42,027 bases of DNA. Origin: Paraburkholderia sp. GTDB taxonomy: Bacteria; Pseudomonadota; Gammaproteobacteria; Burkholderiales; Burkholderiaceae. A program made the position numbers and the translations under genes. The stretch is taken from the NCBI GenBank assembly GCA_031286755.1, contig JAITTX010000341.1, positions 1-42,027 on the forward strand. The letters run 5' to 3'. This document shows, piece by piece, positions 21,737 through 25,412 of this stretch (the first letter of the stretch is position 1; every line of letters starts with the position of its first letter). Below the pieces are notes generated by a model, which saw only the letters and a program-made list of their open reading frames with translations, was not told where the DNA came from and did not search any database.

Positions 21737-23164
21737 TTAATCAGGATCACCAATTACATCGTCGCGATGCCTGGTGCCGCCAGCACTGTCCGCGCCGCGG
21801 CCCTGCCCCGCGCGCGTGCCGAAGCGCGTTCTCGCATGACGCCGCACGGCGCGCGCCATGTGCGGATACAGCTCGCCCGGAACGGCGAACAGCACGAGCG
21901 CGCAAAGCGCGAGCACACCGCAGAACAGGAACGTGCCGCGATACCCGAACGCCTGCACGAGCAGGCCCGACAGCACACCGGAAAGAATCGAGCCCAGCCG
22001 CGCGGCGTTGAAGAACAGCGCCGTGGCGCGACCGGGCGAGTCGGGCATCAGGTCCTGCACATAAGTCATGCCGAGACACGACGTGACGGCCACCACGAAC
22101 GCGTTGAGGATCTGCATGGGAATGAGCGCGTGCACGCCGGGCGCCGCCGACATCGACACGAAGTACACGGCATGCACGACGGCGCAGGCGGCGAGCCAGC
22201 GCAGCTTGTTCAGGCGCGAGGCCTTCGCGCCGAGCGCGAGCATCATGGGAATTTCCATGAACGCGCCGAGCCCGAGCATGATCGAAACGTCGATGCGCGT
22301 GCCCTGGAGCCCATGCACGATATAGAGCGGCAGCACGATCATCGTCGCGTTGGCGGCAAGGCCGATGAGCGTGAGCGCAACCACCGCGCGCATGATGTCG
22401 CTCTGCGAGACGTCGGGCGCGCTCACGCGCACGCGCTGCTTCACCGGCGGCTGCACCTCGGCTTGAACGAGCGGCTGCCCTTCGTAAGGCGCCGCGGCCT
22501 CTTCGGCTTGCTCCGCTGCAACTTCCCCTGCCGTGGGCCGCGTCATCAGATGCTGCGTGGCGTGCTCGTCCTGGCGCGGCTCGCGCATGCGCCAGACGAT
22601 CGTGCCGCATGCCGCGAAGCTCGCCGCCGCGAACAGGAAAAGTCCGTAGAAGCTGGTGGCCGCGAGCACCAGCGCGCCCACCGCCGGCCCGAACACCCAG
22701 GCCGCCGAAAGAATCGTGCGCAGCGTGGCGCTCGCGAAGGTGCGCTCGGCATCGTCGGCGGCCGGCAATGCCGCACGGCTGAACGAGAACACGAGCGAGA
22801 GCGCGCAACCGCCCGCGCCGATGAACGCAATGCCCACCGCGAGCAGCAGACGGTAGTCGCGCACGATGCACAAGCACAAATAGCCGAGCGTGGCCGCGCA
22901 CAGCGAAGCGAGCAGCAGCGGCCGATGCTTGCCCGTGGCGTCGCTCCAGCGCCCGGCCACCGTGCTGGCGATGACGCCGCTCGCCGCGATCGCGGTCATG
23001 AACACGCCGAGCCGGAACGGCGTCATGCCGGCGCGTTCGACGCCGAACAAGGACAGATACGGTGCGGTGAACGACATCGCCACGCCCAGCATCAGGGTGG
23101 CGCCAGCGAGCGGCAGAAAACCTGGAATACGCAGAAGACCGGCAAAGCGCGAGTTCTTGAGCAC
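21737..23164 (-). CDS. MFS efflux transporter, sugar-efflux (SET) type
   Basis: A 12-helix major facilitator protein of about 475 residues. FLPLAGATLMLGVAMSFTAPYLSLFGVERAGMTPFRLG and the GRWSDATGKHRPLLL loop 2-3 motif fit the SetA/SotA sugar-efflux branch. A long Ala/Glu-rich hydrophilic loop of about 60 residues lies in the middle (between helices 6 and 7), longer than usual. The start is uncertain: GTG at 23164 (VLKNSRFAGLLRIPGFLP) fits the family, while a TTG at 23272 would add 36 residues; neither has a ribosome site. It converges with the Cys-rich gene, 65 bp apart. The substrate is unknown. Confidence 0.82.
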   Translation of the reverse strand: MLKNSRFAGLLRIPGFLPLAGATLMLGVAMSFTAPYLSLFGVERAGMTPFRLGVFMTAIAASGVIASTVAGRWSDATGKHRPLLLASLCAATLGYLCLCIVRDYRLLLAVGIAFIGAGGCALSLVFSFSRAALPAADDAERTFASATLRTILSAAWVFGPAVGALVLAATSFYGLFLFAAASFAACGTIVWRMREPRQDEHATQHLMTRPTAGEVAAEQAEEAAAPYEGQPLVQAEVQPPVKQRVRVSAPDVSQSDIMRAVVALTLIGLAANATMIVLPLYIVHGLQGTRIDVSIMLGLGAFMEIPMMLALGAKASRLNKLRWLAACAVVHAVYFVSMSAAPGVHALIPMQILNAFVVAVTSCLGMTYVQDLMPDSPGRATALFFNAARLGSILSGVLSGLLVQAFGYRGTFLFCGVLALCALVLFAVPGELYPHMARAVRRHARTRFGTRAGQGRGADSAGGTRHRDDVIGDPD

Positions 23165-23294
23165 GGCGCGACGCAGAGTGGGAAGAGAAGCCGCGACGCG
23201 CGGGGCGCCGCGATCAGGCGTGATGAGCGCGATTATCGGCGCGAAGCCGAACCTCGCGCAAGGCGGTTGCAAGGCGTGTCAGCATGTGAGCGCA

Positions 23295-23358
23295 CTATCC
23301 ACAGATTTTGTTGAGAGCCCTGTGCGTAACCCGGGGACGAATGCGGCAAGTCCCTGAT
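23295..23358. repeat. 64-bp unit 1 with convergent DnaA-box-like pair
   Basis: Begins CTATCCACAG, one base from the DnaA box TTATCCACA, and at positions 27-35 has TGTGCGTAA, the reverse complement of a two-mismatch box. Ends in TGAT. 47 of 64 bases match unit 2. Confidence 0.7.
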
Positions 23359-23428
23359 GTGTATCGGATTGTGCACGCCGTTTCCAGACACAGCAGATTT
23401 GCCGCCGATACGAAAATCCGTGCCGCGC

Positions 23429-23492
23429 TTGTCCACAGTTTTTGTTCACAGCCTTGTGGGCAACCTTGGGACATATGCGCCAAACTCATGAT
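23429..23492. repeat. 64-bp unit 2 with convergent DnaA-box-like pair
   Basis: Begins TTGTCCACAG (one mismatch to TTATCCACA) and has TGTGGGCAA at positions 27-35 in inverted orientation. Ends CTCATGAT. Confidence 0.7.
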
Positions 23493-23548
23493 TTAAAACA
23501 GCAAGTGTCCGAAAGCCACGGCGGATGCACAAATTTTGCGCGAAAAAG

Positions 23549-23612
23549 TTGTCCACAGTTTTTGGTGACAACTCTGTTGATAACCGCCTGGGGATCTCGC
23601 CAACTCATTGAT
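23549..23612. repeat. 64-bp unit 3 with convergent DnaA-box-like pair
   Basis: Begins TTGTCCACAG and has TGTTGATAA at positions 27-35; read inverted this is TTATCAACA, one mismatch from the DnaA box. Ends CTCATTGAT. Confidence 0.7.
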
Positions 23613-23693
23613 CGGACGACAAGTTCATCGCTTCAGTCACGGAAGCGGCAATTGCGTTTCCAATGAGCAACCCGTCCGACCATCGCCACAGCA

Positions 23694-25412
23694 TCACGCC
23701 AGTTCGAGCGCCGCCGTGAGATCGCCCGGTGGCGTCTGCTCGCGCGAAGCGCAGGCGCGCTCGCGCGCCGCCACGCCGTCGAGTGGCGCGAGGCCATGCA
23801 CGCGGCTGATGAAGCGCAGGATCGAGTTGGTGTCGTAGAACGTGTGGTCCACGTAGCCCTTCTTCGCGAACGGCGCGATCACGAGCGCCGGAATACGCGA
23901 GCCCGGTCCCCAGCGGTCGCCCTGCGGCGGCGCGACCGGATCCCACCAGCCGCCGTTCTCGTCGTGCGTCATCACGATCACCGTGTTCGCCCAATGCTCG
24001 CTGCGCTGCAGATGCTCGATCACGGCCGCGATGTGGCGGTCGCCCGACGCCACGTCGGCATAGCCCGCGTGCATGTTCAGGTTGCCCTGCGGCTTGTAGA
24101 ACGTGACGGCGGGCAGCCGTCCCGCGTCGATGTCGGCTAGCAGGCGGTTCGTGGCCGGGTCGTCGCCGAGGCCCGCGTCGCGCAGGTGGCGCGCGCGCGC
24201 AGCCGTGCCCGGCGCATAGTTGGCGAAGTAATTGAACGGCTGATGGTGATACTGGAAGTCGGGCACGGCGCCCGTGTCGCGATGGTCGAGCGCATATTGC
24301 CAGGCCCCGCTGTACCAGGCCCAGTCGACGCCTTTCGCGGAAAGCCGGTCGCCGATCGTCGCATAGGTTTGCGGCGGCAGCACGCGCGGATTGGCGGGGT
24401 CGGCCCATGCGGGATTGCCTCCCTCCGCGGGTCGCACGTTGCTCGGCTGATACGGCGGCGCCATCGTGTTGACCGCGTAGCCGTCGGGCGTGAAGAGCCC
24501 GTCGTTCACGAACTTCGGAGGCCCGCCCAGCGCCGAAGGCGGGCAATTGGGCGCAAGCTTCAGACGCGTGCCGAGCGGATCGTCGCCTTCGAGCACGGAG
24601 ACCAGATGCTTCGCCGGGCTCGACTGAATGTCCGGATAGTACGGCGCCTGCGCGGAAATCAGATAGATGTGGTTGAGCCAGGAGCCGCCAAACGCCGCCA
24701 TGAAGAAGTTGTCGCAAAGCGTGTATTGCCGCGCGAGTTTCCAGAGCCGCAGCGTATCGGCGGAGTTCTCGTAGTGCCCCATCACGAGGCCGCCCGAGTC
24801 GCCCCACGCGGCGAACTGGTCGTTGCGCCCGGCGTTGATCTGCATCTGGTTCTGGTAGAAGCGATGAATGAGATCGCGCGTTTTGATTCCGTTCGGCAAC
24901 GGATTGCCGTGCGCGTCCACGATGCGAAACGGCTGGTTCGCAAGGCCGGTAATGGCCTGCTCGCCGATCATGTAGCGCTTGCCGTCGAGCTCCTGCGCCT
25001 GCGGAACCAGGCCGCCCCAGATCTTCGGCAATTGCGCGAGCGGCGTCTTGCCGTCGCGGTCGAGTTGCGTATAGCGCGCTGCCGGCACGCCGGAGAGCGG
25101 CGTCTGCACACCCGGAAAACCAGCGTAGAGGTTAACAAAGCTGCGGTTCTCCGCGTAGATCACGACGATGTGACGCACCTGGTCGCGCAGCGCCGCATCG
25201 AGGCGCGCGTCGCCCGCGCTGCGCGGCGCGGCGCCCGCGGCTGGCTCGTTCGACTGGCAGCCGCCGAGCGCGAGCCCCACCCCAACAGCCGCGATCCCGC
25301 CGAGCACGCGCCGGCGAGCGGGGTCGTGAGGACCGTCTCGGTCGGCGCCGCTCCGGTCCAGCGTTTTGTCATGGCCTTGCGGGTCGGGTGCGATCGTGTC
25401 GTCTTGCTGCAT
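23694..25412 (-). CDS. AcpA-type phosphoesterase (acid phosphatase / phospholipase C family), Tat lipoprotein
   Basis: A 572-residue phosphoesterase-family enzyme that hydrolyses phosphate esters outside the cytoplasm. The N-terminus carries a Tat signal (Arg33-Arg35, RRRVLGG) followed by a hydrophobic stretch and a lipobox LGGC (Cys52), so it is probably folded and metal-loaded before export and then lipid-anchored. Metal-site motifs are YAENRSFVNLY near residue 86 and THDENGGWWDPV near 495, as in Francisella AcpA and bacterial phospholipase C. AGGAGG stands before the ATG. The phosphatase versus phospholipase choice cannot be made from sequence alone. It is monocistronic; the DnaA-box repeats lie downstream. 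Confidence 0.9.
   Translation of the reverse strand: MQQDDTIAPDPQGHDKTLDRSGADRDGPHDPARRRVLGGIAAVGVGLALGGCQSNEPAAGAAPRSAGDARLDAALRDQVRHIVVIYAENRSFVNLYAGFPGVQTPLSGVPAARYTQLDRDGKTPLAQLPKIWGGLVPQAQELDGKRYMIGEQAITGLANQPFRIVDAHGNPLPNGIKTRDLIHRFYQNQMQINAGRNDQFAAWGDSGGLVMGHYENSADTLRLWKLARQYTLCDNFFMAAFGGSWLNHIYLISAQAPYYPDIQSSPAKHLVSVLEGDDPLGTRLKLAPNCPPSALGGPPKFVNDGLFTPDGYAVNTMAPPYQPSNVRPAEGGNPAWADPANPRVLPPQTYATIGDRLSAKGVDWAWYSGAWQYALDHRDTGAVPDFQYHHQPFNYFANYAPGTAARARHLRDAGLGDDPATNRLLADIDAGRLPAVTFYKPQGNLNMHAGYADVASGDRHIAAVIEHLQRSEHWANTVIVMTHDENGGWWDPVAPPQGDRWGPGSRIPALVIAPFAKKGYVDHTFYDTNSILRFISRVHGLAPLDGVAARERACASREQTPPGDLTAALELA

Follow-up and report, generated by a model that had tools for sequence, protein, structure and literature searches.

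In Escherichia coli, the DARS elements act in the opposite sense to datA, and ATP-DnaA is regenerated at them. The DARS core is defined as three DnaA boxes in which box I is oriented opposite to boxes II and III, with an identical spacing in DARS1 and DARS2, and the IHF site of datA is placed between its box 2 and box 3 (PMC5742627). The head-to-head box pair of DARS has been called functionally essential (PMC10380432), the counterpart in DARS2 of the middle box discussed below is described as crucial, and full activity of DARS1 requires the flank past its last box (both PMC4585315). Conservation of the DARS2 core is reported among gamma-proteobacteria related to E. coli (PMC4245941); one review places DARS in E. 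coli-proximal beta- or gamma-proteobacteria (PMC5742627), another speaks of DARS-like sequences in "many proteobacterial species" (PMC10380432), and a third mentions DARS for Vibrio cholerae (PMC6090056). No DARS array in the Burkholderiaceae is among the matches listed in our literature searches, which covered mostly non-subscription articles and had the 2009 DARS report outside their scope. In B. cenocepacia, a replication study has charted the places with three or more DnaA boxes per 100 bp, and some of the sites described here may appear, unremarked, in its figure (PMC4948915).

The stretch of DNA analysed here (the window, 42,027 bp) is one entire contig of a 6.66-Mb Paraburkholderia genome, which is in 599 contigs and about 86% complete. 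All three copies of a 64-bp unit lie in the 421-bp gap between an MFS transporter ORF and a PF04185 phosphoesterase gene, the latter presumably acpA (phospholipase C-like), as follows.

23295..23358, + strand: DARS-like unit 1, with an IHF-like site at 23347-23358 (CAAGTCCCTGAT, 7/8)
Boxes of unit 1: DnaA box 23295-23303, + strand (CTATCCACA); weak box 23309-23317, - strand (TGTTGAGAG on the + strand); box 23321-23329, - strand (TGTGCGTAA)
23359..23428, no strand: spacer 1, 70 bp, holding a poorly conserved GTATCGG/CCGATAC inverted repeat
23429..23492, + strand: DARS-like unit 2, with an IHF-like site at 23481-23492 (CAAACTCATGAT, 7/8)
Boxes of unit 2: DnaA box 23429-23437, + strand (TTGTCCACA); weak box 23443-23451, - strand (TGTTCACAG); box 23455-23463, - strand (TGTGGGCAA)
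23493..23548, no strand: spacer 2, 56 bp
23549..23612, + strand: DARS-like unit 3, with an IHF-like site at 23601-23612 (CAACTCATTGAT, 8/8)
Boxes of unit 3: DnaA box 23549-23557, + strand (TTGTCCACA); weak box 23563-23571, - strand (TGGTGACAA); box 23575-23583, - strand (TGTTGATAA)
21737..23272, - strand: flanking MFS transporter ORF, given for context, its true start possibly downstream of the ORF start
23694..25412, - strand: flanking PF04185 phosphoesterase gene, family from Pfam, given for context

The first-pass annotation of this DNA had described the repeats and two of their boxes, and its coordinates, box sequences, offsets, 70- and 56-bp spacers and TGAT ends are all correct to the base; to these we add a third, weaker DnaA box, inverted and starting at offset 14, and the reading of the shared tail as an IHF consensus on the opposite strand. 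A repeat search of the window returned three copies with the same starts as the units, covering their first 37 bases. With at most one mismatch, TTATCCACA matched 6 times in the 42 kb against 2.04 expected, four of the matches falling within the 290-bp repeat stretch, and 6 matches were reached in 2 of 100 shuffled windows. On a profile built from 93 units of other loci and genera the window units score 60.9, 59.5 and 56.7, against -22.5 for the next site of the window and -21.7 for the best of 100 order-1 Markov windows, a test that is incompletely independent because the training units were found by models seeded from the window. An Rfam scan of 22800-24200 and a search of a plasmid collection for the unit both returned no match. 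Nearly all named relatives of the MFS protein carry a Paraburkholderia or Burkholderia sp. label.

The architecture of the unit was established on 232 matches of at least 24 bits from fetched loci, 162 of them distinct and 85 below 82% mutual identity, with DnaA boxes scored against TTATnCACA (8 letters). The order is a + box at offset 0, a weak - box at 14, a - box at 26 and then a predicted IHF site. At most one mismatch is present in the first box in 83/85 units and in the last in 62/85, and the middle box averages 2.76 mismatches of the 8 scored letters, with at least three in 62 of the 85 units. Read as a + box at offset 13, the middle position averages 3.06 mismatches, and most other offsets give 5-7. 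In units of genus g12 (L250, L252, L256, L258) the middle box is TGTTGGCAA. The tail agrees with YAAnnnnTTGAT, from the E. coli consensus printed as TAAnnnnTTGATW (PMC8682772), in 7 or all 8 of its letters for 64 of the 85 distinct units, at one fixed offset; at none of the other offsets (60 tried) was the motif found in more than 3/85 units. By reading, the window units carry 7, 7 and 8 of the 8 letters. The IHF-like site begins 17 bp past the last box, a distance that may not be that of DARS2.

The same box arrangement is found in both DARS cores of E. coli. In DARS1, located in the bioD-uvrB gap, the boxes lie at 813107 (+), +14 (-) and +26 (-), and in the rppH-mutH gap the DARS2 core triad at 2969135 reads 0+/14-/26-, flanked by the ends of published deletion primers, which are printed for a study replacing DARS2 "DnaA box I-III" (PMC4585315). 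The unit possesses both the three-box core with box I opposite to boxes II and III and the 0/14/26 spacing that is common to DARS1 and DARS2. A core profile of 35 columns, derived from the 85 Burkholderiaceae units alone, was run over both strands of four stretches of the E. coli genome (199.6 kb, ~4.3% of the genome) chosen for DARS1, DARS2, oriC and datA. DARS2 ranked first (21.7 bits) and DARS1 second (18.5 bits), 18 bits above the third-ranked site at 0.5; all subsequent sites fell below zero, the best of the datA gap at -0.8, and oriC was absent from the top 14. Since this profile places DARS2 and DARS1 first, the unit is best regarded as a DARS-type core and not as a datA copy or a relic origin. 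The third-ranked site (0.5 bits; E. coli 2969451, in L113 at ~1952) is a third triad of DARS geometry within the DARS2 region. The Burkholderiaceae units themselves average 45.1 on the core profile, and consequently the E. coli cores are related to them by layout and are not close copies. When only the two outer boxes were profiled, DARS2 ranked first (13.0) and DARS1 third (11.8), rank 2 being DARS2 read backwards, and unrelated E. coli sites came near at 11.1 bits; much of the discrimination is therefore carried by the middle block. Likewise, the profile from the 93 units of other loci and genera gave DARS2 and DARS1 17.0 and 15.6 against -0.1 for the next site. Among 252 combinations of spacing and orientation, the unit geometry came first when judged by the second-ranked locus (22.6 bits, the loci being DARS2 and DARS1) and second when judged by the best locus, the top combination being offsets 14/24 with 26.5 bits, also in the DARS2 region.

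The unit departs from both E. coli elements in other respects. DARS1 is a single core with a perfect middle box, whereas here the core is repeated in an array and its middle box is degenerate; that of DARS2 has one mismatch, against the mean of 2.76 in the units. DARS2 works with IHF, but its IHF and Fis sites are part of a long regulatory region, whereas each of the tandem units has one IHF-like site of its own. This tail is on the last-box side, the same side as the flank that DARS1 requires. No strict match to the IHF consensus was found in the DARS1 locus (L112), nor in the DARS2 locus despite its published IHF sites.

In order to assess constraint, the gap was aligned in 17 sequences, namely the window and 16 of the 17 named three-unit loci (L044, which has a weak third unit, was left out). 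Mean pairwise identity is 0.81, 0.79 and 0.86 for units 1-3, the third being the most conserved, against 0.62 and 0.63 in the spacers and 0.67 and 0.63 in the flanks, and the true unit placement ranks 1 among 421 circular shifts for excess conservation over spacers. This alignment and the unit searches described below uphold the first-pass view of a non-coding DnaA-box locus that gene lists miss, and place it in relatives as well. The GTATCGG...CCGATAC inverted repeat noted at the same time is present in spacer 1, but it is intact in only 2 of the 17 aligned sequences and therefore probably incidental. The position between the MFS and acpA genes, on whose conservation that annotation had let its reading depend, recurs in relatives: among 79 named MFS loci, one or more units occur in the 900 bp upstream of the MFS gene in 22, three units in 17, and none there in the other 57, which mostly encode more distant MFS proteins. 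In L039 the array stays next to acpA with ~3.2 kb between it and the MFS gene, and in L035 it is split by ~3.2 kb with a TPR/glycosyltransferase-41 gene, arrangements which imply that the array is not simply the MFS promoter. An ORF between array and MFS gene in the former (L039:4134-5549) combines a phage GPD-like part with a T6SS TssG domain. In L042, L044, L052 and L053 the upstream sequence examined contained no match to acpA. Neighbouring units less than 300 bp apart have the same direction in 63/66 pairs, and helical phasing of the array gaps (113-230 bp) is weak, the vector length being 0.26 for n=63 with non-independent homologues.

The unit is widespread in the family. At E <=0.01 and with partial matches counted, model R1 gave 3-17 matches per genome in 12 genomes, 7 of them in the window's own genome, and at E <=1e-3, with stricter filters, model R2 matched 85 of 100 sampled family genomes, in 21 of 25 genera, many of them weakly; the 15 family genomes with no R2 match measure 0.2-2.8 Mb. 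In an order-level sample, matches occurred in 56/80 genomes, mostly weak and partial. The clearest exceptions are two genomes outside the family, G242 (8 matches) and G292 (3), several of whose matches are full-length, a pattern that may reflect patchy gain, transfer or loss. Large arrays occur in five g12 genomes, where 6-9 units are packed into 3-4.2 kb; the contig concerned lacks dnaA and measures 2.3-2.8 Mb in four of these genomes and 0.64 Mb in G190. In four g12 loci (L250, L252, L256, L258), 7-9 units are interleaved with a LysR-type regulator gene and adjoin a histidine kinase gene, these neighbours being assigned by Pfam on L250 only and by blastp in the others.

On the contig that carries dnaA, a class-A PBP gene is found no more than 1.7 kb from a unit in 18/21 genomes (genera g1, g10, g12, g14 and g25), the gene being called by the Pfam families Transgly, Transpeptidase and PCB_OB in four and by tblastn at 74-97% identity in the rest; the regions of this sample were chosen for holding a unit, and more dnaA-contig units lie elsewhere (L179, L186, L190, L276, L277). 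The pair was not found in the dnaA-contig regions sampled from G015, G166 and G187. In G090 it is found on a 1.88-Mb contig without dnaA (L281), the dnaA contig measuring 6.58 Mb, which looks like replicon fusion, exchange or misassembly. The chr1 site departs from the same-direction arrays at L157:9101-9240 and L163:9095-9234, where it consists of two divergent units with only ~7 bp between them. On chr2, a second cluster of two or three units adjoins a chemotaxis-receptor gene in G032, G002, G003 and G017 (Pfam in G032 only), and in G032 and G002 the Rep3/ParAB genes are ~52 kb away from this cluster; the array of window type in these two genomes is removed from those genes by ~0.38 and ~0.34 of chr2, respectively, circular replicons being assumed. 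Lone triads are also observed near chr2 rep/par genes (L160:4275-4316, L166:6124-6167 and L183:6656-6692), the profile match ending before the tail; the distance to the Rep3 gene is ~2.9 kb in L160 and L166 and ~5 kb in L183, and it is possible that such a triad is a DnaA element of ori2. On a third replicon, one unit adjoins a Rep3 gene (L162; L167 and L172 by gene clusters). PF10134, with matches in 2/11 genomes, is not the Rep family of most chr2 origins, Rep3 (PF01051/PF21205) being found instead, and no dif site was detected in 11 genomes with up to 3 mismatches to the consensus used.

The distribution between replicons is uneven. In 25 genomes (all 26 but the fragmented G000, total sizes rounded to 0.1 Mb), the dnaA contigs (93.3 Mb in total) carry 56 full-length units and the remaining 83.7 Mb carry 127, at densities of 0.60/Mb and 1.52/Mb, a ratio of 2.5; density is higher elsewhere in 20/25 genomes and lower in four (G015, G036, G166, G185), and G206 has zero units. 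For 15 genomes with assigned chr1 and chr2 (G000, G015, G090, G158, G166, G187, G190, G192, G206, G219 and G235 of the 26 being omitted), the 56.4 Mb of chr1 hold 37 units and the 39.9 Mb of chr2 hold 94, with densities of 0.66 and 2.36 per Mb (ratio 3.6) and 0.37 and 0.95 clusters per Mb. Both tallies drop matches with E >1e-4 or not spanning model columns 10 to 60, and no p-value is attached to them because array units and related genomes are not independent.

Based on these results, we hypothesize, with a probability of roughly 0.65, that the three units of the stretch are DnaA-reactivating elements of DARS type which act by nucleotide exchange, a predicted IHF site being attached to each. 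Judged by its sequence, the unit very probably belongs to the DARS class, an assignment firmer than the exchange claim, for which two points leave more doubt: of the three boxes the middle one, a perfect box in DARS1, is the poorest match here, and a combination of DnaA boxes with IHF also makes up datA. ADP-DnaA would bind the head-to-head boxes 0(+)/14(-) and box 26(-), a bend introduced by IHF 17 bp past the last box would aid the release of ADP from the DnaA oligomer, and apo-DnaA would depart and rebind ATP, so that more ATP-DnaA would be available for the next initiation. On the protein side, IhfA scores above the cut-off in 8/8 genomes, the window's own included, and the DnaA of three Paraburkholderia genomes (L145, L148, L150) keeps 14/14 of the E. 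coli residues checked, including D269, R285 and L290 and the box-contacting residues. The window's own genome has a DnaA fragment only, and the residue comparison refers to these three other genomes. The support for the DARS reading comes from the anatomy of the unit, the match to DARS in geometry and profile, conservation above that of the spacers, synteny, IhfA and the DnaA residues in three genomes; the weak middle box, an IHF distance that may not be that of DARS2 and the tail-less match near chr2 rep/par genes count against it.

DnaA boxes with an IHF site in an intergenic region are also the recipe of datA, and the array might instead drive DnaA-ATP hydrolysis or titrate DnaA, thereby delaying re-initiation. 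Arrays of up to 9 units in ~4 kb could titrate much DnaA, and DARS1, DARS2 and datA are themselves reported to supply much of the titration power of E. coli (PMC12371093). Nevertheless, on the core profile the best site of the datA gap reaches only -0.8, where the DARS cores score 21.7 and 18.5, and plain titration does not need a fixed convergent geometry; we consider a datA-type function unlikely. In the unit the IHF-like site follows the boxes, and in datA it lies between box 2 and box 3. The datA-like titration locus of the first-pass annotation is accordingly kept as an alternative only, and its other proposal, a relic or cryptic origin, is disfavoured, the box geometry being that of E. 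coli DARS1 and DARS2 and oriC lying outside the top 14. An origin would be consistent with the single units near chr2 rep/par genes (in L160, ~2.9 kb from Rep3) and next to a Rep3 gene on a third replicon, but no initiator gene was found among the seven window genes scanned with Pfam, genomes hold several copies (with partial matches counted, 3-17 in each of 12 genomes), and more than 700 kb separate the array from the chr2 rep genes in G032 and G002, which leaves this reading a negligible probability. Membership of the class of oriC- or Rep-type replication origins, which calls for an adjacent initiator gene and one site per replicon, is opposed by the same scan of seven window genes and by the 3-17 matches per genome. 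The first-pass annotation would have taken a repeat scattered over many sites and unconnected with replication as refuting its reading; this applies by half, since the sites are many but some of them adjoin Rep3/ParAB genes.

Control by DnaA and IHF of the transcription of the MFS gene or of other neighbours would account for the units within 900 bp upstream of that gene in 22/79 named loci, three of them in 17. It is improbable, given that units persist while the neighbours change (L039, L035, L042, L044, L052, L053) and that others flank PBP, chemotaxis-receptor, Rep3 and LysR genes; the absence of a sigma-70-like promoter from 23100-23800 in a simple consensus scan is a weak point on the same side. 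The co-orientation of 63/66 close unit pairs and the higher density off the dnaA contig would agree with a site for nucleoid organisation or segregation that uses DnaA and IHF, or with another reader of DnaA boxes, but the exact DARS spacing is then left unexplained, and we regard this explanation as highly improbable.

A DARS-type array on secondary replicons invites comparison with chrI-4/crtS of V. cholerae, a non-origin site which affects replication in a genome of two chromosomes and has been likened to DARS (PMC3937223). Both belong to multi-chromosome genomes and neither is an origin, but crtS, on chr1, acts on RctB and promotes chr2 replication, whereas the sites described here are of DnaA type and denser on secondary replicons. 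As most units are off the dnaA replicon, a dosage coupling between replicons is suggested. We may speculate, doubtful as it is, that Burkholderiaceae have amplified DARS-IHF modules mostly onto secondary chromosomes, so that duplication of chr2 raises DnaA recharging. If true, DnaA-dependent initiation of chr1 would be tied to the replication state of chr2 by a cross-chromosome checkpoint that is based on DnaA and runs counter to Vibrio crtS. The portable 64-bp module of three DnaA boxes and an IHF-like site, single or in up to 9 copies, offers well-defined sites that can be deleted, as well as a less complex substrate than DARS2 for studies of IHF-driven DnaA recharging, and it bears on how one DnaA times several replicons in multi-chromosome Burkholderiaceae.
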